From Kribbella jejuensis (GTDB taxonomy: Bacteria; Actinomycetota; Actinomycetes; Propionibacteriales; Kribbellaceae): DNA of 64,000 nt. Under the pieces are notes generated by a model. That model saw only the letters and a program-made list of their open reading frames with translations, was not told where the DNA came from and did not search any database. The first letter of the stretch is position 1. Each line of letters starts with the position of its first letter. Both the position numbers and the translations under genes were made by a program. Below, in pieces: positions 37,961-49,146 of the stretch. The DNA is taken from positions 434,001 to 498,000 of the forward strand of contig NZ_VFMM01000002.1 of the NCBI RefSeq assembly GCF_006715085.1, written 5' to 3'.

Positions 37961-40114
37961 TCAGCTTTCAGAGCGCTTCGGCAGGTCCGGCTGCTCCTGG
38001 CGGGCGAGTTTGCTGGGCCACCAGACTTTGCGGCCGATGTCGTGGGCCAGGGATGGGACGAGCAGGGAGCGGACGACGGTGGTGTCCAGTAGGACGCCGA
38101 AGGCGACCATGAAAGCTATCTGGACCAGGAAGAGGATCGGGAGAACTGCGAGGGCCGAGAAGGTGGCGGCCAGGACGACGCCGGCGGAGGTGATGACGCC
38201 GCCGGTTACTGCCAGGCCGATGAGGATGCCTGGTCTGGTGCCTTGGGCGTGGGATTCCTCTCGGACCCGGGTCATCAGGAAGATCGAGTAGTCGATGCCT
38301 AGGGCAACCAGGAAGACGAAGGCGTACAAAGGGATTCCTGGGTCCGCGCCCGGAAATTTGAAGACGTGGTTGAACATCAGTGCGCTGACGCCGACGGTCG
38401 CGCCGAACGACAGCACGTTGGCGATCACCAGCAGGACCGCGGCGACGAGTGAACGGAGCAGCAGCATCAGGACGACGAAGATCACCGCGAGGATCGTCGG
38501 GATGATCACGCGCAGGTCACGCTGCGCGGCGTCGAGGACGTCGAGGTTGATCGCGGTGTTGCCGCCGACCAGGATGTCCGGGCTCACCTTGTCCAGCTCG
38601 GTCCGCAGGTGCTTGACCACCTTGGTCGCGGCCGGTGAGTCGGCCCGGATCTTCAGCGTCGCCTGGACCAGGACCTTGCCGTCGACAACCTTCGGCGGTA
38701 CGCCGGGCGCCACCGAGGCGGACGCGGCGCCGACGCCGTCGACCTTGACCGCGGTCTGCACGACCTGGTCCGCCTGTGCCGCGGGGGTGAGGATCTCCAC
38801 CGGCGTACCGGAGCCGGCGTCGAAGTGCTTCGCGAGCCGCTCCTGACCGGTGACCGACTCGACCTTGTTCAGGAACAGGTCCTCCTGCGACGTACCGGAG
38901 GCCTTGAACGTCGGGAGGAACGCCGCGCAGGCGAGCAGGGCGAGCGCGGTGATCGCCCAGACCCGCCGCGACCGCCGGCCGACCAGGCCGGACACGCGGC
39001 CCCACAGCCGGCGCCCGCCGACCTGGTCGCGGGAGTGTACGTGGTCGACGCGCGGGATCGACGGCCAGAAGATCCGCCGCCCGAACGCGAGCAGGATCGC
39101 GGGCAGGAACGTCATCGCCGCGATGAACGCACCAGCGATGCCCAGCGCGCCGACCGGTCCGAGGCCCTTCGTGCTGCCGAGCTTCGACAGCAGCAGGCAC
39201 AGCAGGCCGAGGATGACGGTCGCGGCGCTGGCCGCGATCGGTTCGATCGACGCCCGCCAGGCGACCCGCATCGCCTGGAACTTGCTCTCGTAGTCGTGCA
39301 ACTCCTCTTTGTAACGGGAGACGAGCAGCAACGCGTAGTCCGTCGAGGCGCCGACGACCAGGATGAAGAGGATGCCCTGACTCTGGCCGTTGAGCTGCAG
39401 CACGCCGTGCTTCGCCAGCGGGTACACGACCAGCGCCGCGAGCGCGAGGCCGAACACCGCGGTCAGTAGCACCGCGATGGGCAGGATCGGGCTGCGGTAC
39501 ACGATCAGCAGGATCACGAACACGACCGCGAGCGCGACGCCGAGCAGGATTCCGTCGATCCCGCTGAACGCGACGACGAAGTCCGCGAACACCCCGCCCG
39601 GACCGGTGACGTACACCTGCAGGCCGGTCGGCGTGAGGCTGTTCTTGATCTCGGCGCGGAGTGCCTTCGCCACGGCGTACAGGACGGTCTCGCCCTGGCC
39701 GACGACCTCGTCGGCGCGGTCGCCGTCGATCTGCACGGTGAGCAGTAGCGCCTTGTGGTCCGAGGCCGGTACGGCGGGTCTGACCGGGGCGGTGAGGTAG
39801 TCGCCCAGCTTCTTGCCGTCGCCGAGCTCGAGCCCGGGGATCTTGGCGACGAACCCCTGCAGAACGGTCTGGTCCGCAGCGGTGATCGGGGTGTCACGCT
39901 CGATCAGGACGAAGTACGGGAGTGCCTTGGAGTCGACGAACTTCGCGGCCTCGTTGGCGACCACCGTCGATTCGGCCTTCTTCGGAAGGAAGTTGGCGTT
40001 GTCGTTCTGCTGGACCTCGCTGAGCTTGCCGACCGCGGGGCCGCCGAGGGCGCCCAGGACGAGCCAGACGATCAGTACGGCGGCGATCCCCGCCCTCCAC
40101 CTCCACCGGTTCAC
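37961..40114 (-). CDS. MMPL-family transporter (RND superfamily)
   Basis: 717 residues from a GTG. The layout is that of a small MMPL protein: one N-terminal helix, an outside domain, five helices (for example GIDGILLGVALAVVFVILLIVY), a second outside domain and five more helices. The conserved membrane motif GASTDYALLLVSRYKEEL in the first half has its partner ALGIDYSIFLMTRVREES in the second; the Asp-Tyr pairs carry protons. It exports lipids or hydrophobic compounds using proton flow. The C-terminus (DIGRKVWWPSKLAR) is typical. The substrate cannot be told. Confidence 0.88.
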   Translation of the reverse strand: MNRWRWRAGIAAVLIVWLVLGALGGPAVGKLSEVQQNDNANFLPKKAESTVVANEAAKFVDSKALPYFVLIERDTPITAADQTVLQGFVAKIPGLELGDGKKLGDYLTAPVRPAVPASDHKALLLTVQIDGDRADEVVGQGETVLYAVAKALRAEIKNSLTPTGLQVYVTGPGGVFADFVVAFSGIDGILLGVALAVVFVILLIVYRSPILPIAVLLTAVFGLALAALVVYPLAKHGVLQLNGQSQGILFILVVGASTDYALLLVSRYKEELHDYESKFQAMRVAWRASIEPIAASAATVILGLLCLLLSKLGSTKGLGPVGALGIAGAFIAAMTFLPAILLAFGRRIFWPSIPRVDHVHSRDQVGGRRLWGRVSGLVGRRSRRVWAITALALLACAAFLPTFKASGTSQEDLFLNKVESVTGQERLAKHFDAGSGTPVEILTPAAQADQVVQTAVKVDGVGAASASVAPGVPPKVVDGKVLVQATLKIRADSPAATKVVKHLRTELDKVSPDILVGGNTAINLDVLDAAQRDLRVIIPTILAVIFVVLMLLLRSLVAAVLLVIANVLSFGATVGVSALMFNHVFKFPGADPGIPLYAFVFLVALGIDYSIFLMTRVREESHAQGTRPGILIGLAVTGGVITSAGVVLAATFSALAVLPILFLVQIAFMVAFGVLLDTTVVRSLLVPSLAHDIGRKVWWPSKLARQEQPDLPKRSES

Positions 40115-40261: not shown

Positions 40262-41629
40262 ATGACGCTCGAAGCAGGACAGGCGGCTGTCGCCAACCGC
40301 GAAGGCAGTGGGGCGGTCGGCACGGTCGAGGCCCCGCGGCGCGGGCGCTGGATCGATGTCTGGGATCCCGAGGACGCTACGTTCTGGGCCGCGAAGGGCC
40401 GCGCGATGGCGCGCCGGAACCTGTGGCCCTCGATCTTCGCCGAGTTCCTCGGCTTCTCGGTGTGGCAGCTGTGGAGCATCGTCGTGGTGTCGATGCCGAA
40501 GGCCGGCTTCACCTACAGCACGAACCAGCTGTTCTGGCTGGTCGCGCTGCCGAGCCTGGTCGGCGCGACGCTGCGGCTGCCGTACACGTTCGCCGTACCG
40601 CGGTTCGGCGGGCGGAACTGGACCACGTTCTCCGCGCTGCTGCTGCTGATCCCGACGGCCGGGCTGTCGTACTTCATGACGCAGCCGGACACGCCGTTCT
40701 GGCTGATGGCGCTGGTCGCGGCGACCGCGGGTGTCGGCGGCGGGAACTTCGCCAGCAGCATGACCAACATCTCCTTCTTCTACCCGGAGAAGGAAAAGGG
40801 TTTCGCACTCGGCGTGAACGCGGCCGGCGGCAACCTCGGCGTCGCGGTCGTGCAGTTGTTCGTGCCGATCGTGATCGTCGCCGGTGCCGGCCTGACGCTG
40901 AACCGTTCCGGTCTGATGTGGCTTCCGCTGATCGTGCTGGCCGCGTTCTGGGCCTGGAAGGCGATGGCGAACCTCTCGGTCGCGAACTCGTCGTTCCGGA
41001 CCTCGATCGCGGCGGCGAAGCGGCCGCACACCTGGGTGATCTCGTTCCTCTACATCGGCACGTTCGGGTCGTTCATCGGGTTCGGGGCGGCGTTCCCGCT
41101 GCTGATCAAGACCACGTTCGCGGGCGTCACCCCGGCGCACTACGCGTTCCTCGGGGCGCTCGTGGGATCGGTCTCGCGGCCGTTCGGCGGCAAGCTGGCC
41201 GACCGGATCGGCGGCGCCCGGGTCACCGTGTGCTCGTTCGTGGTGATGGGGCTCGGCATCGTTTCCGCGATCTTCTCGCTCAAGGCGGAGAGCTTCGGGG
41301 CGTTCCTGGGCAGCTTCCTGGTCCTGTTCGTGGCCAGCGGGATCGCGAACGGATCGACGTACCGGATGATTCCGGCGGTCTTCCGGCTCACCACGCCGAA
41401 CGACCCGGGCCGCGCCCGGCGTGAGGCGGCGGCCTGCATCGGCATCGCGTCCGCGGTCGGCGCGTACGGCGGCTTCCTGGTACCGCGTGGCTTCGCGACA
41501 TCGACGAGCCACTTCGGCTCGCTGATCCCGGCGCTGTACGTGTTCTGCGGGTTCTACGTGGTGTGCCTCGCGGTGACGTACTTCTGCTACCTGCGCAAGG
41601 GCGGCCCGCTCAGCCAGGAGCGCGTGTGA
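40262..41629 (+). CDS. narK: Nitrate/nitrite MFS transporter
   Basis: 455 residues with 12 membrane helices. The NarK/NasA signature is present: the early FLGFSVWQLWSIVV, RLPYTFAVPRFGGRNWTTF, the nitrate motif AGVGGGNFASSMTNISFFYPEKEKG and a second glycine-rich helix AAGGNLGVAVVQLF. It moves nitrate in (or nitrite out) across the cell membrane. It is the first gene of the operon. Its TGA overlaps the GTG of nasA, so the two are translationally coupled. Confidence 0.92.
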   Translation: MTLEAGQAAVANREGSGAVGTVEAPRRGRWIDVWDPEDATFWAAKGRAMARRNLWPSIFAEFLGFSVWQLWSIVVVSMPKAGFTYSTNQLFWLVALPSLVGATLRLPYTFAVPRFGGRNWTTFSALLLLIPTAGLSYFMTQPDTPFWLMALVAATAGVGGGNFASSMTNISFFYPEKEKGFALGVNAAGGNLGVAVVQLFVPIVIVAGAGLTLNRSGLMWLPLIVLAAFWAWKAMANLSVANSSFRTSIAAAKRPHTWVISFLYIGTFGSFIGFGAAFPLLIKTTFAGVTPAHYAFLGALVGSVSRPFGGKLADRIGGARVTVCSFVVMGLGIVSAIFSLKAESFGAFLGSFLVLFVASGIANGSTYRMIPAVFRLTTPNDPGRARREAAACIGIASAVGAYGGFLVPRGFATSTSHFGSLIPALYVFCGFYVVCLAVTYFCYLRKGGPLSQERV

Positions 41630-43746
41630 CCGCTATCGCGACGCACTGTCCGTACTGCGCCCTGCAGTGCGCCACCACGCTGCACCCGGTCTCGCGACCG
41701 GGTGCCGTGGAGGTGCAGCCGAGGGACTTCCCGACCAACCGGGGCGGGTTGTGCCGTAAGGGCTGGACGGCTCCCGACGTACTCACGGTGCCGGACCGGC
41801 TCACCGTGCCGCTCGTCCGCAACGCGGCGGGCGAGCTGGAGGAGACGACCTGGGACGCCGCGCTGGACTTCGTCGCGGCACGGATCACGTCGTTGCAGGC
41901 AGCGCACGGCCACGACGCGGTGGCGGTGTTCGGCGGCGGTGGTCTGACGAACGAGAAGGCCTACGCATTGGGGAAGTTCGCGCGGGTCGCGTTGCGGACC
42001 GCGAACGTGGACTACAACGGCCGGTTCTGCATGTCGTCGGCGGCCGCCGCGACGAACCGTGCGTTCGGGATCGACCGCGGACTGCCGTTCCCGCTGGCCG
42101 ATCTGGGCGGTGCGGGTGCCGTCCTGCTGGTCGGAAGCAACATCGCCGAGACGATGCCGCCGGCAGTGGCGCATCTGCAGGGCGCACGCGACGCGGGTGG
42201 ACTTCTGGTCGTCGACCCGCGCCACTCGGCCACCGCAAGCCTCACCGACGACGGCGCGGGCCTCCACCTGCAGCCGACTCCGGGCACTGACCTGGCTCTC
42301 CTGCTGGCCCTGACGCACGTAGTACTGCAGGAAGGCCTTGCGGACACCGCATTCCTGGCTGAACGGGTCGACGACGCCGACTTACTGATTCGTTCGACTG
42401 CTTCGTGGTGGCCGGAGCGCGCGGAGCGGGTCACTGGTGTACCCGCCGCGACCATCCGTCAGGCTGTGCGGGTGCTGGCGGCGGCGGCTCCGGTGCATGG
42501 CGGCGCGGGCGCGTACATCCTCACCGGGCGTGGGGCCGAGCAGCACAGCAAGGGCACCGACACGGTGACCGCTTGTATCAACCTCGCGTTGGCGCTTGGT
42601 TTGCCCGGGCGGTTGGGGAGCGGGTACGGCTGCATCACGGGGCAGGGCAATGGGCAGGGCGGGCGCGAGCACGGGCAGAAGGCGGATCAGCTGCCTGGTT
42701 ATCGGAGCATCGAGGACCCGGCCGCTCGGTCCCACGTTGCGGAGGTCTGGGGTGTGCGGCCGGAGGAGTTGCCGCGGTCCGGGAAGAGTGCGGTCGAGCT
42801 GATCAATTCGCTCGGTACGGCGGATGGTCCCAAGGCGCTGTTCGTGCATGGGAGCAACCTGCTCGTGTCGGCGCCGAACCTTGCGTCCGTGCGAGAGCGG
42901 CTGAACGCGCTCGAACTGTTGGTGGTTGCGGATGTCGTTCCGTCCGAGACCGCGCTGTTGGCCGACGTGGTGTTCCCGGTCACGCAGTGGGCCGAGGAGG
43001 ACGGGACGATGACGTCGCTCGAGGGGCGGGTACTGCGGCGACGGACAGCGGTGGCGGCGCCGGGTGAGGTGCGGAGCGATCTTGCGGTGTTCGCGGGGAT
43101 CGCCGAGCGGCTCGGCGTACCTGGGTTTTCGACGGATCCGGCCGAGGTGTTCGAGGAGCTGCGCCGGGCGAGCGCGGGCGGGAAGGCCGACTACTCCGGG
43201 ATCACCTGGGAGCGGCTGGACGCCGGCGAGGAGTTGTTCTGGCCGGTTCCGGACGAGGGGCATCCGGGGACGCCGCGGTTGTTCGCGGACGGGTTTCCGA
43301 CCGCGGACGGGCGGGCGCACGTCGTACCGGTCGACCATCGGCCGGTGGCGGACGACCTCAACGGGTCGGCGCCGATGTACCTGGTGACAGGGCGGTTGCT
43401 GCAGCACTACCAGAGCGGGGCGCAGACGCGGCGGGTGCCGGAGTTGGCCGAGGCCGAGCCCGAGGTGTACGCCGAGGTGCATCCGCGAGTGGCGGCGCAG
43501 CTGGGGATCGGCGACGGGCGTCCGGTGCGGTTGCGGACGGCGCGCGGGTCGATGGTGCTGCCGGCCCGGATCACGCCGGACGTCCGGCCGGACACCGTTT
43601 TCGTACCGTTCCACTTCGGCGGTGCCGAAGCGGTCAACGAGCTGACGAACGACGCGCTCGACCCGGTGTCGCGGATGCCCGAGTTCAAGGCGTGCGCGGT
43701 GCAGGTGACGGCGGCGGAGTTGGGCGCGACGGGGGTGCCGGCATGA
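41626..43746 (+). CDS. nasA: Assimilatory nitrate reductase, molybdopterin catalytic subunit
   Basis: 706 residues from a GTG overlapping the narK stop. The N-terminus has the [4Fe-4S] ligands C8, C11, C15 and C43 (HCPYCALQC, then NRGGLCRKGW). The bis-molybdopterin fold follows (FGGGGLTNEKAYALGKFARVAL, GSNIAETMPPAVAHLQ, TDTVTACINLALALG) and ends in the dinucleotide-binding domain (LVTGRLLQHYQSGAQTRR). It reduces nitrate to nitrite in the cytoplasm. Unlike some NasA proteins it has no C-terminal BFD cluster; one is present in the following flavoprotein. Confidence 0.92.
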   Translation: MTAIATHCPYCALQCATTLHPVSRPGAVEVQPRDFPTNRGGLCRKGWTAPDVLTVPDRLTVPLVRNAAGELEETTWDAALDFVAARITSLQAAHGHDAVAVFGGGGLTNEKAYALGKFARVALRTANVDYNGRFCMSSAAAATNRAFGIDRGLPFPLADLGGAGAVLLVGSNIAETMPPAVAHLQGARDAGGLLVVDPRHSATASLTDDGAGLHLQPTPGTDLALLLALTHVVLQEGLADTAFLAERVDDADLLIRSTASWWPERAERVTGVPAATIRQAVRVLAAAAPVHGGAGAYILTGRGAEQHSKGTDTVTACINLALALGLPGRLGSGYGCITGQGNGQGGREHGQKADQLPGYRSIEDPAARSHVAEVWGVRPEELPRSGKSAVELINSLGTADGPKALFVHGSNLLVSAPNLASVRERLNALELLVVADVVPSETALLADVVFPVTQWAEEDGTMTSLEGRVLRRRTAVAAPGEVRSDLAVFAGIAERLGVPGFSTDPAEVFEELRRASAGGKADYSGITWERLDAGEELFWPVPDEGHPGTPRLFADGFPTADGRAHVVPVDHRPVADDLNGSAPMYLVTGRLLQHYQSGAQTRRVPELAEAEPEVYAEVHPRVAAQLGIGDGRPVRLRTARGSMVLPARITPDVRPDTVFVPFHFGGAEAVNELTNDALDPVSRMPEFKACAVQVTAAELGATGVPA

Positions 43747-46700
43747 GGATCGTGATCATCGGCGGCGGGATGGCCGGGCGGCGGCTGGCCGAGTTGCTGC
43801 CGTCGTACGACGTGACTGTGCTGGGCGACGAGCCGTCGTACAACCGATCGCGGCTGACGGAGTACGTTGCCGGCCGCGCGGAAGTTGCTGTTGGCAACGA
43901 GCCTGCTGTGGCGGCGGTTGCGGTGGATCGGGTACGGCGGGTGGTCGTCGGAGCAGACGGCGTCGAGTACCCGTACGACCGGCTGGTGTTCGCGACCGGC
44001 GCGGTACCGGTGGTGCCGGCCGGTGTCGAGGGCGGGTTGCTGCTGCGGTCCGTCGAGGACGCGCGCGCGGTGGTTGCCGCGGCACAGGAGGCGCGGCGGG
44101 CCGTCGTACTCGGCGGTGGTGTGCTCGGTGTCGAGACCGCCTGCGCGCTGCGCGAACGCGGCGTCGCGGTCACCCTCGTCCACGACGGGGAAACCTTGCT
44201 CGACAAGACAGTCCGCCCGTCGGCCGGGCGTCGGGTCACCCGCGCGGTCCGCCGCCTGGGCGTCGAGGTCCTGCTCAACACAGAACTCTCCCGAACAGAG
44301 ACGAAGGACGGTCGCTTCCGAGCGCTGACCTTGCAGAACGGTCACCAGGTGTTCGGCGACCTGCTGGTGGTCGCCTGTGGCGTCCGCCCTCGCACGGAGC
44401 TTGCCGGCGGTCTCACCGCTCGTACTGGGATCGTCGTGGACGAGACGTTCACGAGCCCCGACGACCCCACCGTGCACGCAATCGGCGACTGCGCCGAGCT
44501 GAACGGCCGAGTCACAGGAACAGTCGGATCAGCCTGGGCCCACGCGGAACAGCTGGCCGCCCACCTGCATTCCACCGTGGACGTTGGCGCAGCCTCGGCG
44601 ACTCCAGAGGTGGTTCGGCTGACCGCTGGTGGGCTGGATGTGCTCGTTCTCGGGGACAAGGACGCGACCGGTGCGGTGGTTCGGCTCGAGGACGAGACGC
44701 GGTATGTGCGCGCCGTGCTGCAGGACGGTGTGGTGCGGGCGGCGGTCGCTGTGGGGGCGCCGGAAGTCGCGGCGGAGTTGGTCTTGCTGGCGGACCGGGG
44801 GACACCCGTGGTCGCGGACGGGTTGCTGGAGGCAACCGACGTACCGCAGCAGCAGAAGAAGCCACCGACGGTCTGTCGGTGCAACGGAGTGACCCGGGTC
44901 GCCATCGAGGCGGCCTGGCGTGGGGGTGCCGACAGTGTCGCCGGCATCGCCGCCACGACGCGGGCGACGACCGGGTGCGGAAGCTGCACCGGCGCCGTCG
45001 GCGAACTGCTCGACCGCTTCCGGCGCGGCGAGACCGAACCAGTCCCGAGCAGGAGGGCGACGATGGCAGAGCTGAACAAGGCCAAGCACGTGGTGGTGGT
45101 CGGCGGGGGTATGGTCGCCCACCGGCTGGTCGAGGCGCTCCGGCAGCGCGACACGAACATCGACTACCGGATCACCGTGTACGCCGAGGAGCCGCGGCTC
45201 CCGTACGACCGGGTCGCCCTCACCAGCTACTTCTCCGGCCGCGACCCGCACGACCTGTCGCTGGGTGACCCGGAGCTGTGGGACGACCCGGCGGTGAACC
45301 TCCGCAAGGGCGTCCAGATCACCGCGATCGACCCGGCAGCCAAGACCGTCACGACGGCACGCGGCGAAGTGGTCGGGTACGACGAACTGGTGCTCGCGAC
45401 CGGCTCCGCCGCGTTCGTGCCGCCGGTGAAGAACAACGACGCGCAGGGCTGTTTCGTCTACCGCACGATCGACGACGTCGCCGCGCTGCGTGTGTACGTC
45501 GAGCGGCTCAAGTCCGAAGGCAAGCAGGTCAACGGTGTCGTCGTCGGCGGCGGTCTGCTCGGCCTCGAAGCCGCGGGTGCACTCCGCGCGTTGGGCGCGG
45601 CGACCAAGGTCGTCGAGTTCGCGCCGCGGCTGATGCCGTTGCAGGTCGACGAAGGCGGCGGCGCGGCCCTGTCCCGGTTGATCGCCGGCCTGGACGTCGA
45701 CGTACTCACCGAAACCGCGTGCCAGCGGGTGAAACTGACCTCGCAGGGCGCCGCCCGCGCGATGGCTGTTGCCGACGGCCCCGATCTGCCGGCGGACGTG
45801 GTGGTGTTCGCGACCGGTGTCCGCCCGCGCGACGAGCTCGGCCGCGCGGCCGGCCTGGCGATCGGCGAACGCGGCGGTGTGGTCGTCGACGAGGCCTGCC
45901 GTACGTCGGTACCGGGCGTCTGGGCGATCGGCGAGGTGGCCTGTATCGAAGGACGGGTGTGGGGCCTGATCGCACCCGGCTACACGATGGCCGAGATCGT
46001 CGCGGACCGGCTGCTCGGCGGCGAGGCGACCTTCCCTGGCGCGGACACCTCGACGAAGTTGAAGCTGCTCGGCGTCGACGTCGCGAGCTTCGGTGACGCC
46101 TTCGGTACCACCGAAGGCGCGCTGGACATCGTGTACGCCGACCCGGTGGCCGGTGTCTACAAGAAGCTCGTGCTGTCCGACGACGCCCGTACCCTGCTCG
46201 GCGGCATCCTGGTCGGCGACGCGTCGGCGTACTCCGGGCTGCGTCCGATGGTCGGCCGCGAACTCGGCGCCGATCCGGCCGCGTTCCTGCTGCCCGAAGG
46301 CGCCGCGCCGGTCCAGCTCGAGCTGCCCGACGACGCGCCGGTGTGTTCCTGCAACAACGTCTCCGCCGGCACGATCCGGTGCGCCGTCCGGGACGAGGGC
46401 TGCACCGACATCAAGTCCGTGTGCGGTCGTACCAAGGCCGGCACGAGCTGCGGTTCCTGCCTGCCGATCGTCAAGAACCTGCTGAACACCGAGCTCACCA
46501 AGGCCGGTGTCGAGGTCAGCAAGGCGCTCTGCGAACACTTCGCGCTGTCCCGCGCCGAGCTGTTCGACGCTGTCCGGATCACCGAGCTGCGGACCTTCAG
46601 CGAGATCGTCGAGCGGCACGGCACCGGCCGCGGCTGCGACATCTGCAAGCCCGTGGTGGCGTCGATCCTGGCCAGCATCGACCCGGCCGGGCACGTGCTG

Positions 46701-47639
46701 GACGGCGAGCGCGCGACGCTGCAGGACACCAACGACCACGTGATGGCGAACATGCAGAAGGACGGGACGTACTCCGTCGTACCGCGGATCCCCGGTGGTG
46801 AGATCACTCCGGAGGGCCTGATCACGATCGGCGAGGTGGCGCGCGACTTCGGGCTGTACACGAAGATCACCGGTGGCCAGCGGGTCGACCTGTTCGGCGC
46901 GCGGATCGAGCAGTTGCCGGCGATCTGGAAGCGGCTGGTCGACGCGGGGTTCGAGTCGGGACACGCATACGGCAAGGCGCTGCGGACGGTGAAGTCCTGC
47001 GTCGGGTCCACCTGGTGCCGGTACGGCGTCCAGGACTCGGTCGGGATGGCGATCGCGCTCGAGCTGCGGTACCGCGGGCTGCGGTCGCCGCACAAGATCA
47101 AGCTCGGCGTCTCCGGCTGTGCCCGGGAGTGCGCGGAAGCGCGCGGCAAGGACGTCGGCGTGATCGCGACCGAGAAGGGCTGGAACCTGTACGTCGGCGG
47201 CAACGGCGGGATGACCCCGCGGCACGCCGAACTGCTCGCGTCGGACCTCACCGACGAGCAGTTGTTCCAGGCGATCGACCGGTTCCTGATGTACTACGTC
47301 CGGACCGGCGACCGGCTGCAGCGTACGTCGGTGTGGTTGCGCGAGATCGGCCTGGAGCAGGTCCGGGACGTCGTACTCAACGACAGCCTCGGGATCGCCG
47401 CCGACCTGGACGCCGCGATGGCGCAGCACGTGGACGCCTACGTCGACGAGTGGAAGGCGACGCTCGACGATCCCGACAAGCTGGCCCGATTCGTGTCGTT
47501 CGTGAACGCACCGGATCAGCCCGACGCCGACCTGCGGTACGTGGTCGAGCGGAACCAGCCGCGCCCGGCGACCCCGGCCGAGCGCGGGCAGCTCGAGCCG
47601 GTCCTGCTGGCCGGTCCCCGATTGGAGGTACGCCGATGA
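43743..47639 (+). CDS. In-frame fusion: NasB-like flavoprotein + nitrite reductase large subunit NirB
   Basis: One open frame of 1298 codons with no stop. Residues 1-440 are an FAD/NAD oxidoreductase (RIVIIGGGMAGRRLAELLP, YDRLVFATGAVPVVP, VHAIGDCAELNG) with a BFD-type [2Fe-2S] end (TVCRCNGVTR, then TTGCGSCTGAV), as in NasB, the electron donor for nitrate reductase. Residues 441-1298 are a complete NirB. Between them (45051-45065) lie AGGAGGG, five bases and ATG, a strong internal start. Both a full fusion and separate NirB can be made. In most relatives known to me these are separate genes. The ATG at 43743 overlaps the nasA stop. Confidence 0.82.
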   Translation: MRIVIIGGGMAGRRLAELLPSYDVTVLGDEPSYNRSRLTEYVAGRAEVAVGNEPAVAAVAVDRVRRVVVGADGVEYPYDRLVFATGAVPVVPAGVEGGLLLRSVEDARAVVAAAQEARRAVVLGGGVLGVETACALRERGVAVTLVHDGETLLDKTVRPSAGRRVTRAVRRLGVEVLLNTELSRTETKDGRFRALTLQNGHQVFGDLLVVACGVRPRTELAGGLTARTGIVVDETFTSPDDPTVHAIGDCAELNGRVTGTVGSAWAHAEQLAAHLHSTVDVGAASATPEVVRLTAGGLDVLVLGDKDATGAVVRLEDETRYVRAVLQDGVVRAAVAVGAPEVAAELVLLADRGTPVVADGLLEATDVPQQQKKPPTVCRCNGVTRVAIEAAWRGGADSVAGIAATTRATTGCGSCTGAVGELLDRFRRGETEPVPSRRATMAELNKAKHVVVVGGGMVAHRLVEALRQRDTNIDYRITVYAEEPRLPYDRVALTSYFSGRDPHDLSLGDPELWDDPAVNLRKGVQITAIDPAAKTVTTARGEVVGYDELVLATGSAAFVPPVKNNDAQGCFVYRTIDDVAALRVYVERLKSEGKQVNGVVVGGGLLGLEAAGALRALGAATKVVEFAPRLMPLQVDEGGGAALSRLIAGLDVDVLTETACQRVKLTSQGAARAMAVADGPDLPADVVVFATGVRPRDELGRAAGLAIGERGGVVVDEACRTSVPGVWAIGEVACIEGRVWGLIAPGYTMAEIVADRLLGGEATFPGADTSTKLKLLGVDVASFGDAFGTTEGALDIVYADPVAGVYKKLVLSDDARTLLGGILVGDASAYSGLRPMVGRELGADPAAFLLPEGAAPVQLELPDDAPVCSCNNVSAGTIRCAVRDEGCTDIKSVCGRTKAGTSCGSCLPIVKNLLNTELTKAGVEVSKALCEHFALSRAELFDAVRITELRTFSEIVERHGTGRGCDICKPVVASILASIDPAGHVLDGERATLQDTNDHVMANMQKDGTYSVVPRIPGGEITPEGLITIGEVARDFGLYTKITGGQRVDLFGARIEQLPAIWKRLVDAGFESGHAYGKALRTVKSCVGSTWCRYGVQDSVGMAIALELRYRGLRSPHKIKLGVSGCARECAEARGKDVGVIATEKGWNLYVGGNGGMTPRHAELLASDLTDEQLFQAIDRFLMYYVRTGDRLQRTSVWLREIGLEQVRDVVLNDSLGIAADLDAAMAQHVDAYVDEWKATLDDPDKLARFVSFVNAPDQPDADLRYVVERNQPRPATPAERGQLEPVLLAGPRLEVRR
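45063..47639 (+). CDS. nirB: Nitrite reductase (NAD(P)H) large subunit, internal start
   Basis: 858 residues. NirB reduces nitrite to ammonium with six electrons from NAD(P)H. In order: FAD domain (HVVVVGGGMVAHRLVEALRQ), NAD domain (GVVVGGGLLGLEAAGALRAL), two BFD-type cluster segments (CSCNNVSAGTIRCAV, then TSCGSCLPIV) and the sulfite/nitrite reductase part. The siroheme/[4Fe-4S] ligands are in KSCVGSTWCRYG and GVSGCARECAEARG. AGGAGGG lies five bases before the ATG. The upstream flavoprotein has no stop before it, so NirB may also be the C-terminal part of a fusion. Confidence 0.93.
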   Translation: MAELNKAKHVVVVGGGMVAHRLVEALRQRDTNIDYRITVYAEEPRLPYDRVALTSYFSGRDPHDLSLGDPELWDDPAVNLRKGVQITAIDPAAKTVTTARGEVVGYDELVLATGSAAFVPPVKNNDAQGCFVYRTIDDVAALRVYVERLKSEGKQVNGVVVGGGLLGLEAAGALRALGAATKVVEFAPRLMPLQVDEGGGAALSRLIAGLDVDVLTETACQRVKLTSQGAARAMAVADGPDLPADVVVFATGVRPRDELGRAAGLAIGERGGVVVDEACRTSVPGVWAIGEVACIEGRVWGLIAPGYTMAEIVADRLLGGEATFPGADTSTKLKLLGVDVASFGDAFGTTEGALDIVYADPVAGVYKKLVLSDDARTLLGGILVGDASAYSGLRPMVGRELGADPAAFLLPEGAAPVQLELPDDAPVCSCNNVSAGTIRCAVRDEGCTDIKSVCGRTKAGTSCGSCLPIVKNLLNTELTKAGVEVSKALCEHFALSRAELFDAVRITELRTFSEIVERHGTGRGCDICKPVVASILASIDPAGHVLDGERATLQDTNDHVMANMQKDGTYSVVPRIPGGEITPEGLITIGEVARDFGLYTKITGGQRVDLFGARIEQLPAIWKRLVDAGFESGHAYGKALRTVKSCVGSTWCRYGVQDSVGMAIALELRYRGLRSPHKIKLGVSGCARECAEARGKDVGVIATEKGWNLYVGGNGGMTPRHAELLASDLTDEQLFQAIDRFLMYYVRTGDRLQRTSVWLREIGLEQVRDVVLNDSLGIAADLDAAMAQHVDAYVDEWKATLDDPDKLARFVSFVNAPDQPDADLRYVVERNQPRPATPAERGQLEPVLLAGPRLEVRR

Positions 47640-48025
47640 GCATCGTTGCTTGTGGTCCGACTGTGGTGTGTGCTTTCGACGTGTTGTTGCCGGAGCGTGG
47701 GGTCGCCGCGCTGCTCGGGGACACGCAGATCGCGCTGTTCCGCACCCACGACGGCGAAGTGTTTGCCGTCGGCAACCAGGACCCGTACAGCGGGGCGAAC
47801 GTGATGTCGCGGGGCATCGTCGGCAGCCGCGGCGACGTACCGACGGTGGCGTCGCCGATGTTCAAGCAGGTCTTCGACCTGCGCACCGGGGTGTGCCTGG
47901 ACGATCCGGAGGTCCGGCTGCCGGTCTACCCGGTCGAGATCGTCGACGGCCGGGTGGTCGTCGGTGGCCCCGACGACAGCGACGGTAGCGACGGCATACC
48001 AAACGGTATGGTACGGTCCCGGTGA
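47636..48025 (+). CDS. nirD: Nitrite reductase small subunit
   Basis: 129 residues from the ATG at 47636, overlapping the nirB stop by 4 bases with GGAGGTA upstream. It has a Rieske-like fold without the usual Cys-His cluster ligands, as normal for NirD: ALFRTHDGEVFAVGNQDPYSGANVMSRGIVG, then FKQVFDLRTGVCLDD. The last 20 residues (Asp/Ser/Gly-rich, then IPNGMVRSR) go past the usual end. That part of the message contains a 6-bp hairpin, CATACC (47995-48000) with GGTATG (48005-48010), just before the next start. Confidence 0.92.
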   Translation: MSIVACGPTVVCAFDVLLPERGVAALLGDTQIALFRTHDGEVFAVGNQDPYSGANVMSRGIVGSRGDVPTVASPMFKQVFDLRTGVCLDDPEVRLPVYPVEIVDGRVVVGGPDDSDGSDGIPNGMVRSR

Positions 48026-49146
48026 CGCGGACGGGCCCGCTGAGCGGCTGCACGATCGCGATCTCCGCGCACCGGCGCGCGGAGGACCTGATCGCGTCGT
48101 TCGAACGGCGCGGCGCGAAGGTGCTGCACGCGCCGACGCTGCAGATCGTGCCGGTCGCCGACGACCACGCGCTGATCGAGGCGACCCGGCGGGTGATCGC
48201 GAACCCGCCGGACGACGTGGTTGTCACGACCGCGGTCGGATTCCGCGGCTGGATCGAGGCGGCCGACACCGCCGGGCTCGCGGCCGAGCTGCTCGGGACG
48301 TTGGAGCAGTCGCGGATCCTGGCCCGCGGTCCGAAGGCGCGCGGCGCGATCCGCGCGGCCGGCCTGGTCGAGCACTGGTCGGCGCGCTCCGAGACGACGG
48401 CCGAGGTCGTGGAGTGGTTGCGGGAACAGGGCGTCGACGGCCGGAAGATCGTCGTACAGCTGCACGGGCTGTCGGATCCGGCGCTGCAGGAGGCGTTGCG
48501 GTCGGCGGGTGCCTCGGTGCGTGGGCTGGAGGTGTACCGGTGGGGACCGGCGCCGGACCCGGCGCTCGTCGAGCGGATGATCTCGCAGGTGTGCGGTGGG
48601 ACCGTCGACGCCGTCGTGCACACGTCGGCGCCCGGTGCGCAGGCGATGCTCGACGCCGCGGCGCTGACCGGTCAGTACGACGAGTTGGTGGCGTCGTTGC
48701 GGACCGGGCGGGTGCTCAACGCGTGCGTCGGGCCGGTGACGGCCGGACCGTTTGTGGCGCTGGGGTTGGAGCCACTGGTGCCTGATCGGTTCCGGTTGGG
48801 GGCGCTGATCCGGATCGTCACGGACCGGCTGACCGACGACAACGCACGGTCCATCGAGACGGCGTTCGGGCAGTTGGTGATCCGCGGCGGCGCGGCGGTG
48901 CTCGACGGCGTCGTACTGCCGTTGGGGCCCGGTCCGCGGGCCGTTCTGGCTGCGCTCGTCGCGGCCGGCGGGGACGTGGTGTCGCGACCGGAGTTGCTCG
49001 CGGTACTGCCCGGCGCGGAGGACGTGCATGCGGTGGAGGTGACGGTGAACCGCCTGCGTACGGCGGTGGGACGGCCCGAGTTGGTGCGGACCGTCGTACG
49101 ACGTGGTTATCGGTTGGCTGTCGAACCGGCGGGAGTTCCTACATGA
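48022..49146 (+). CDS. HemD-like protein fused to a winged-helix DNA-binding domain
   Basis: 374 residues from a GTG overlapping the nirD stop. Residues 1-265 resemble uroporphyrinogen-III synthase (GCTIAISAHRRAEDLIASFERRGA, then TTAVGFRGWIEAAD and VDAVVHTSAPGAQAMLDAA). Residues 285-370 form an OmpR/PhoB-type winged helix (GGDVVSRPELLAVLP, then HAVEVTVNRLRTAVG and TVVRRGYRLAVEP). Similar fusions sit next to nirBD in mycobacteria and streptomycetes. It may make the siroheme precursor, or sense it and control the operon (inference). Confidence 0.85.
   Translation: MTRTGPLSGCTIAISAHRRAEDLIASFERRGAKVLHAPTLQIVPVADDHALIEATRRVIANPPDDVVVTTAVGFRGWIEAADTAGLAAELLGTLEQSRILARGPKARGAIRAAGLVEHWSARSETTAEVVEWLREQGVDGRKIVVQLHGLSDPALQEALRSAGASVRGLEVYRWGPAPDPALVERMISQVCGGTVDAVVHTSAPGAQAMLDAAALTGQYDELVASLRTGRVLNACVGPVTAGPFVALGLEPLVPDRFRLGALIRIVTDRLTDDNARSIETAFGQLVIRGGAAVLDGVVLPLGPGPRAVLAALVAAGGDVVSRPELLAVLPGAEDVHAVEVTVNRLRTAVGRPELVRTVVRRGYRLAVEPAGVPT

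Follow-up and report, generated by a model that had tools for sequence, protein, structure and literature searches.

In Bacillus-type nitrate assimilation, the flavoprotein NasB carries a BFD [2Fe-2S] domain and serves as the electron donor to NasC, which has no BFD domain of its own. In actinomycete nas operons, nasC, nasB and nirB are neighbours, often with ATGA overlaps, and NasB ends at a stop codon. In-frame internal starts give a long and a short product in the case of IF2 and CheA. The same has been described for Cas11b (PMC11899642).

Here, a 64,000-nt stretch of the Kribbella jejuensis genome (contig NZ_VFMM01000002.1, positions 434,001 to 498,000; hereafter the window) was analysed, in which NasB and NirB share one open reading frame. 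We consider it quite likely that nasB and nirB have been a single gene since the Kribbella ancestor, and that its message is read in two ways, giving a NasB-NirB fusion and free NirB. No description of such a fusion was found in the open-access literature.

Architecture of the fused frame and its operon

Translation of the window yielded a single stop-free frame of 1298 codons, comprising 440 codons of NasB and 858 of NirB (Table 1). This agrees with the first-pass annotation, and the same frame was recovered in 36 Kribbella genomes. According to Pfam, residues 1–440 contain Pyr_redox_2 followed by one four-cysteine BFD domain, as in NasB, and residues 441–1298 contain Pyr_redox_2, two BFD stretches, NIR_SIR_ferr and NIR_SIR, which make up a complete NirB. 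The NirB part scored 1033 bits against the curated NCBIfam family TIGR02374 (nirB; cut-off 578), its four sirohaem/[4Fe-4S] cysteines are invariant, and the gene for its partner NirD follows directly. No second NasB was found elsewhere in the window's own genome. The fusion had been credited with three sets of cluster ligands. Four invariant cysteines are indeed present in each of two BFD domains, but the third holds only three, and NirB additionally carries the sirohaem/[4Fe-4S] cysteines.

In a structure model of residues 1–860, the two flavin domains were predicted confidently (mean pLDDT near 90) and the BFD region weakly, while pLDDT fell below 50 at linker residues 432–436. The pTM of 0.51 does not fix the relative placement and packing of the arms. 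PDB relatives matched the flavin domains only, with E-values of 1e-20 or better.

The first gene of the operon encodes a transporter, and the genes 3' of nirD are a HemD-regulator gene and a CbiX-like gene. The nasC product has a [4Fe-4S] domain and no BFD domain (Pfam); its best NCBIfam match is NasC, at 733 bits under a cut-off of 1100. Judging by its junctions, the nitrate operon is fully coupled through 4-nt GTGA/ATGA stop-start overlaps (at 41626, 43743, 47636, 48022 and 49143), the nasB/nirB joint being the sole exception. The RTGA overlap between the nasC stop and the NasB start was present in 35 of 35 genomes.

At the end of the operon (48022–49146), a uroporphyrinogen-III synthase (HEM4) is fused to a Trans_reg_C DNA-binding domain; we presume that this gene may correspond to the mycobacterial NnaR-type regulator. 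On the other side, translation inspected by eye revealed a divergent gene for an MMPL-type membrane transporter (37961–40114, − strand) adjoining the operon. A similar gene, also recognised by eye, lies beside the transporter-nirB locus of another Kribbella genome (L037, 2357–4537, − strand).

Table 1. Features of the nitrate operon in the window and of related loci in other Kribbella genomes (positions are those of the window unless a locus handle is given; residues are numbered along the fusion).
Feature	Coordinates	Strand	Basis
NarK/Nrt-type nitrate/nitrite MFS transporter gene, first gene of the operon	40262..41629	+	NCBIfam NarU/NarK families; Pfam MFS_1
nasC, assimilatory nitrate reductase catalytic subunit (Mo-bisMGD, [4Fe-4S]); GTGA overlap with transporter gene	41626..43746	+	Pfam Molybdopterin, Molydop_binding, Molybdop_Fe4S4
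Fused nasB-nirB open frame, 1298 codons	43743..47639	+	Translation; frame shared with 36 Kribbella genomes
NasB FAD/NADH domain, residues 1–258; ATGA overlap with nasC stop	43743..44516	+	Pfam Pyr_redox_2
NasB BFD [2Fe-2S] domain, residues 376–424, Cys 378/380/412/415	44868..45014	+	Pfam Fer2_BFD; Cys invariant in 36 genomes
In-frame linker without stop, residues 425–440 (16 residues)	45015..45062	+	Codon-position changes; low pLDDT
Putative internal Shine-Dalgarno AGGAGGG for NirB, within linker codons	45051..45057	+	Arg codon conservation; duplex energy
NirB module, 858 codons, own ATG	45063..47639	+	TIGR02374; ATG in 36/36 fused genomes
NirB FAD/NADH domain, residues 449–736	45087..45950	+	Pfam Pyr_redox_2
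NirB first BFD domain, Cys 868/870/903/906	46341..46487	+	Pfam; Cys list
NirB second, partial BFD-like domain, Cys 930/965/968 only	46530..46682	+	Pfam (third BFD stretch of the fusion); Cys list
NirB nitrite/sulphite reductase domains, sirohaem/[4Fe-4S] Cys 1086/1092/1126/1130	46755..47378	+	Pfam NIR_SIR_ferr, NIR_SIR; Cys list
nirD, small (Rieske-type) subunit; ATGA overlap with nirB	47636..48025	+	TIGR02378; Pfam Rieske_2
NasC-NasB(short)-NirB frame, 1865 codons	L036 1888–7485 (also L083)	−	
Single-chain NasC-flavodoxin-FAD-NAD nitrate reductase	L154 673–4812	−	
Single-chain NasC-flavodoxin-FAD-NAD nitrate reductase	L155 2721–6626		

The joint across Kribbella and beyond

NirB was found in all 38 Kribbella genomes sampled and NasB in 36, and in every NasB-bearing genome the two formed one stop-free frame. 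Identity to the window ranged from 61 to 84% in the NasB part and from 84 to 97% in the NirB part. NasB residue 430 and the NirB ATG are 30 nt apart in 34 genomes, 27 nt in one (L029) and 33 nt in one (L035), so that linker indels comprise a single codon and the two parts always stay in phase. At the level of sequence, the fusion is real and genus-wide in Kribbella. A stop codon at the joint, which the first-pass annotation had proposed to look for in relatives, was absent throughout the genus and present outside it. In other genera, nasB and nirB are often adjacent and separated by a stop; each of the three relative phases occurs, and the genes either overlap by ATGA or are spaced by as much as 1000 nt and more. 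Fusions were absent from the matches listed from samples of the order, class and phylum, from plasmids (where no place covers 80% of the query) and, outside Kribbella, from 78 named loci. One contig named Streptomyces sp. SID13031 (NZ_JAAGLV010000022.1, L081) groups inside Kribbella, and its name looks wrong.

Substitutions in the linker followed a coding pattern. On the tree of 36 genomes, linker codons 424–435 had accumulated 6, 6 and 32 changes at codon positions 1, 2 and 3, respectively (third-position excess, p = 1e-7). The pN value was 0.058, compared to 0.16–0.23 in the part of NasB N-terminal to the BFD domain, and pN/pS was 0.21. The third-position excess and low pN therefore argue that the linker evolves as translated, constrained protein, with GETEPVP-(S/T/A)-RRAT as the sequence conserved at the protein level. 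The absence of stops was not significant as a stand-alone test, about 30% of neutral simulations of the linker being stop-free as well. Synonymous conservation in sliding windows was also dropped as evidence: variation was low at the joint but lower still in other windows along the frame, and codon choice was used as the test for this reason.

The in-frame join might be an accident without function, with NasB and NirB working as if apart and the frame persisting by inertia. The stop-free share of the neutral simulations would fit such a history, as would the ancestral adjacency of nasB and nirB in actinomycetes. However, the linker has undergone only 3-nt length changes and protein-like substitution, whereas other genera space the two genes freely. 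We regard an accidental join as unlikely.

The joint reads CCG AGC AGG AGG GCG ACG ATG GCA. The strong internal start proposed earlier, AGGAGGG followed by five bases and ATG, is thus present as described, and the site is kept in the genus. At codons 437 and 438, 71 of the 72 cases use AGG or AGA for arginine (36/36 and 35/36 genomes), the exception being AAG. Elsewhere in the same frames, AGG accounts for 3.4% and AGA for 0.6% of 3783 arginine codons (4.0% together), and among 91 arginine columns only this pair is AGG/AGA in at least 30 of the 36 genomes. The variants AGAAGG and AGGAAG remain Shine-Dalgarno-like. Predicted pairing of the joint with the 16S tail ranged from −7.4 to −12.6 kcal/mol over the 36 genomes; the window reached −12.6, against −9.9 at its NasB start. 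In 33 of the 36 genomes, the joint had the strongest Shine-Dalgarno sequence of all in-frame ATGs, and the NirB ATG was kept in all 36. Retention of rare arginine codons at this site therefore points to nucleotide-level selection over and above that on the encoded residues, and the conserved ribosome site and start codon are naturally read as an internal start of NirB.

The fusion could instead be made and then cut by a protease, so that the cell would hold separate NasB and NirB. There is a precedent in the fused MoaX of M. tuberculosis, which is cleaved after translation (PMC4326299), and the linker is flexible, with low model confidence. Against this, no conserved cleavage motif was identified within a linker conserved at the protein level, and a cell supplied with enough NirB by cleavage would have no need to keep the internal start. 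Processing of this kind appears decidedly unlikely.

Conversely, only the fusion may matter, and the internal start may be left over from an ancestor with two separate genes. Two points agree with this possibility: any translation of NasB necessarily yields the fusion, there being no stop codon, and substitutions in the linker have coding periodicity. Yet the site occupies codons that are rarely used elsewhere in these frames and is still kept in 36 of 36 diverged genomes, its variants stay Shine-Dalgarno-like, and two sister genomes (L037, L038) have a stand-alone NirB. We therefore consider a relic very unlikely.

A sequencing or assembly error, such as a missed base at the joint, can be dismissed because the identical frame runs uninterrupted through all 36 independent genomes, several of them single-contig, and nothing was found in its favour. 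The ATGA at the NirB start might have concealed a stop or a programmed frameshift, but this reading was also rejected: ATGA occurs in only 19 of the 36 genomes and lies outside the fused frame. For the same reasons, it looks like the trace of a former overlap.

NasC and the scaffold question

The presence of NasB was linked to that of NasC. A NasC orthologue lies upstream in all 36 NasB-bearing genomes, and both are absent from the two others, where NirB directly follows the transporter gene. These two genomes have no NasC orthologue at the locus (best matches elsewhere, 36–38%) and instead carry a nitrate reductase of 1301 or 1379 residues fused to CysJ-type flavodoxin/FAD/NAD domains. Judging from them, the NasB arm is present or missing together with NasC, and NirB is kept even where the arm is missing. 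Since NasC lacks a BFD domain, analogy with Bacillus-type Nas suggests that it needs the BFD domain of NasB, a dependence that the two NasB-less genomes support.

The suggestion that the fusion places nitrate and nitrite reduction on one scaffold was not borne out, as the molybdenum subunit NasC is encoded by a separate gene. Because NasC is a separate chain, the fusion joins the electron supply and not both catalytic centres. The suggestion holds only in a weaker sense, namely that the electron donor of NasC would be tethered to NirB.

In Kribbella sp. VKM Ac-2568 (L036, L083), a single 1865-codon frame runs through NasC, a shortened NasB and NirB. The shortened NasB has lost its N-terminal FAD-binding part and kept the BFD cysteines. 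If true at the protein level, a single polypeptide would carry out both nitrate and nitrite reduction; the frame was seen in one genome and could also represent a degenerating locus.

Proposed expression and comparison with known systems

The fusion is probably functional as well as conserved, with a conserved second start. In many relatives a GGAGG site precedes an ATGA in which the NasB stop and the NirB start overlap. The most likely origin is a short indel that shifted the frame near the end of such an overlapping NasB gene in the Kribbella ancestor; one or two bases would have sufficed to turn the overlap into a fusion while leaving the ribosome site in place, and the Kribbella genes with ATGA at the NirB start now have it out of frame.

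As deduced from the sequence, ribosomes that start at NasB must read into NirB because there is no stop codon. Two products are accordingly expected, the 1298-residue fusion, which is the sole possible form of NasB, and free NirB. The first-pass annotation had suggested this pair from one message, and the stop-free frame and the Shine-Dalgarno sequence held on arginine codons in 36/36 genomes support it. Initiation at the NasB ATG (43743), coupled to the nasC stop, would continue to 47639 and yield the fusion; initiation at the internal AGGAGG/ATG (45051/45063) would yield ordinary NirB. The NasB arm is predicted to relay electrons from NADH, via its FAD and [2Fe-2S] BFD domain, to NasC, the separately encoded nitrate reductase, and the NirB part, with NirD, would reduce nitrite to ammonium.

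The NirB family forms dimers. If Kribbella NirB is dimeric, mixed dimers with zero, one or two NasB arms could arise, which would tether the electron donor of NasC beside the nitrite reductase and keep NirB in excess. Accumulation of both proteins, their ratio, docking of NasC and any channelling of nitrite are what we infer from this scheme, and avoidance of free nitrite, as proposed in the first-pass annotation, could follow. A broader proposal is tentative and, taken as a whole, rather doubtful: the Kribbella assembly for nitrate-to-ammonium reduction would consist of NirB dimers with 0, 1 or 2 NasC-docking NasB arms, their number set by the two starts, and in VKM Ac-2568 it would have advanced to a single 1865-residue NasC-BFD-NirB chain that could reduce nitrate to ammonium alone via the NirB flavin.

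A natural gene fusion whose old start site is still under selection would allow fused and free forms of an enzyme to be compared in one cell, and the physical coupling of nitrate and nitrite reduction in assimilation becomes a directly testable question. For annotation, the locus calls for caution: a gene caller is forced to pick the 1298- or the 858-residue product, though both are probably real.

Compared to the NirB family (TIGR02374), of which the C-terminal 858 residues are a complete member, the additional part is an N-terminal second FAD/NADH-BFD module. The pairing of a BFD flavoprotein donor with a BFD-less NasC is shared with the Bacillus type. Bacillus NasB, however, is stand-alone and larger, whereas Kribbella NasB has 440 residues and is tethered to NirB. 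The single-chain NasC-CysJ-type reductases (L154, L155) likewise combine electron supply and nitrate assimilation in a single polypeptide, but there the flavodoxin/FAD/NAD domains are fused to the nitrate reductase, while in the fusion NasB is joined to NirB. As in Cas11b, IF2 and CheA, one frame has two starts and the short product would be the C-terminal part; in Kribbella, in contrast, that part is a complete enzyme, encoded by a separate gene in relatives. With other actinomycete nas operons the locus shares the same neighbours and domains, and it differs in having joined NasB and NirB frames with a retained internal start.
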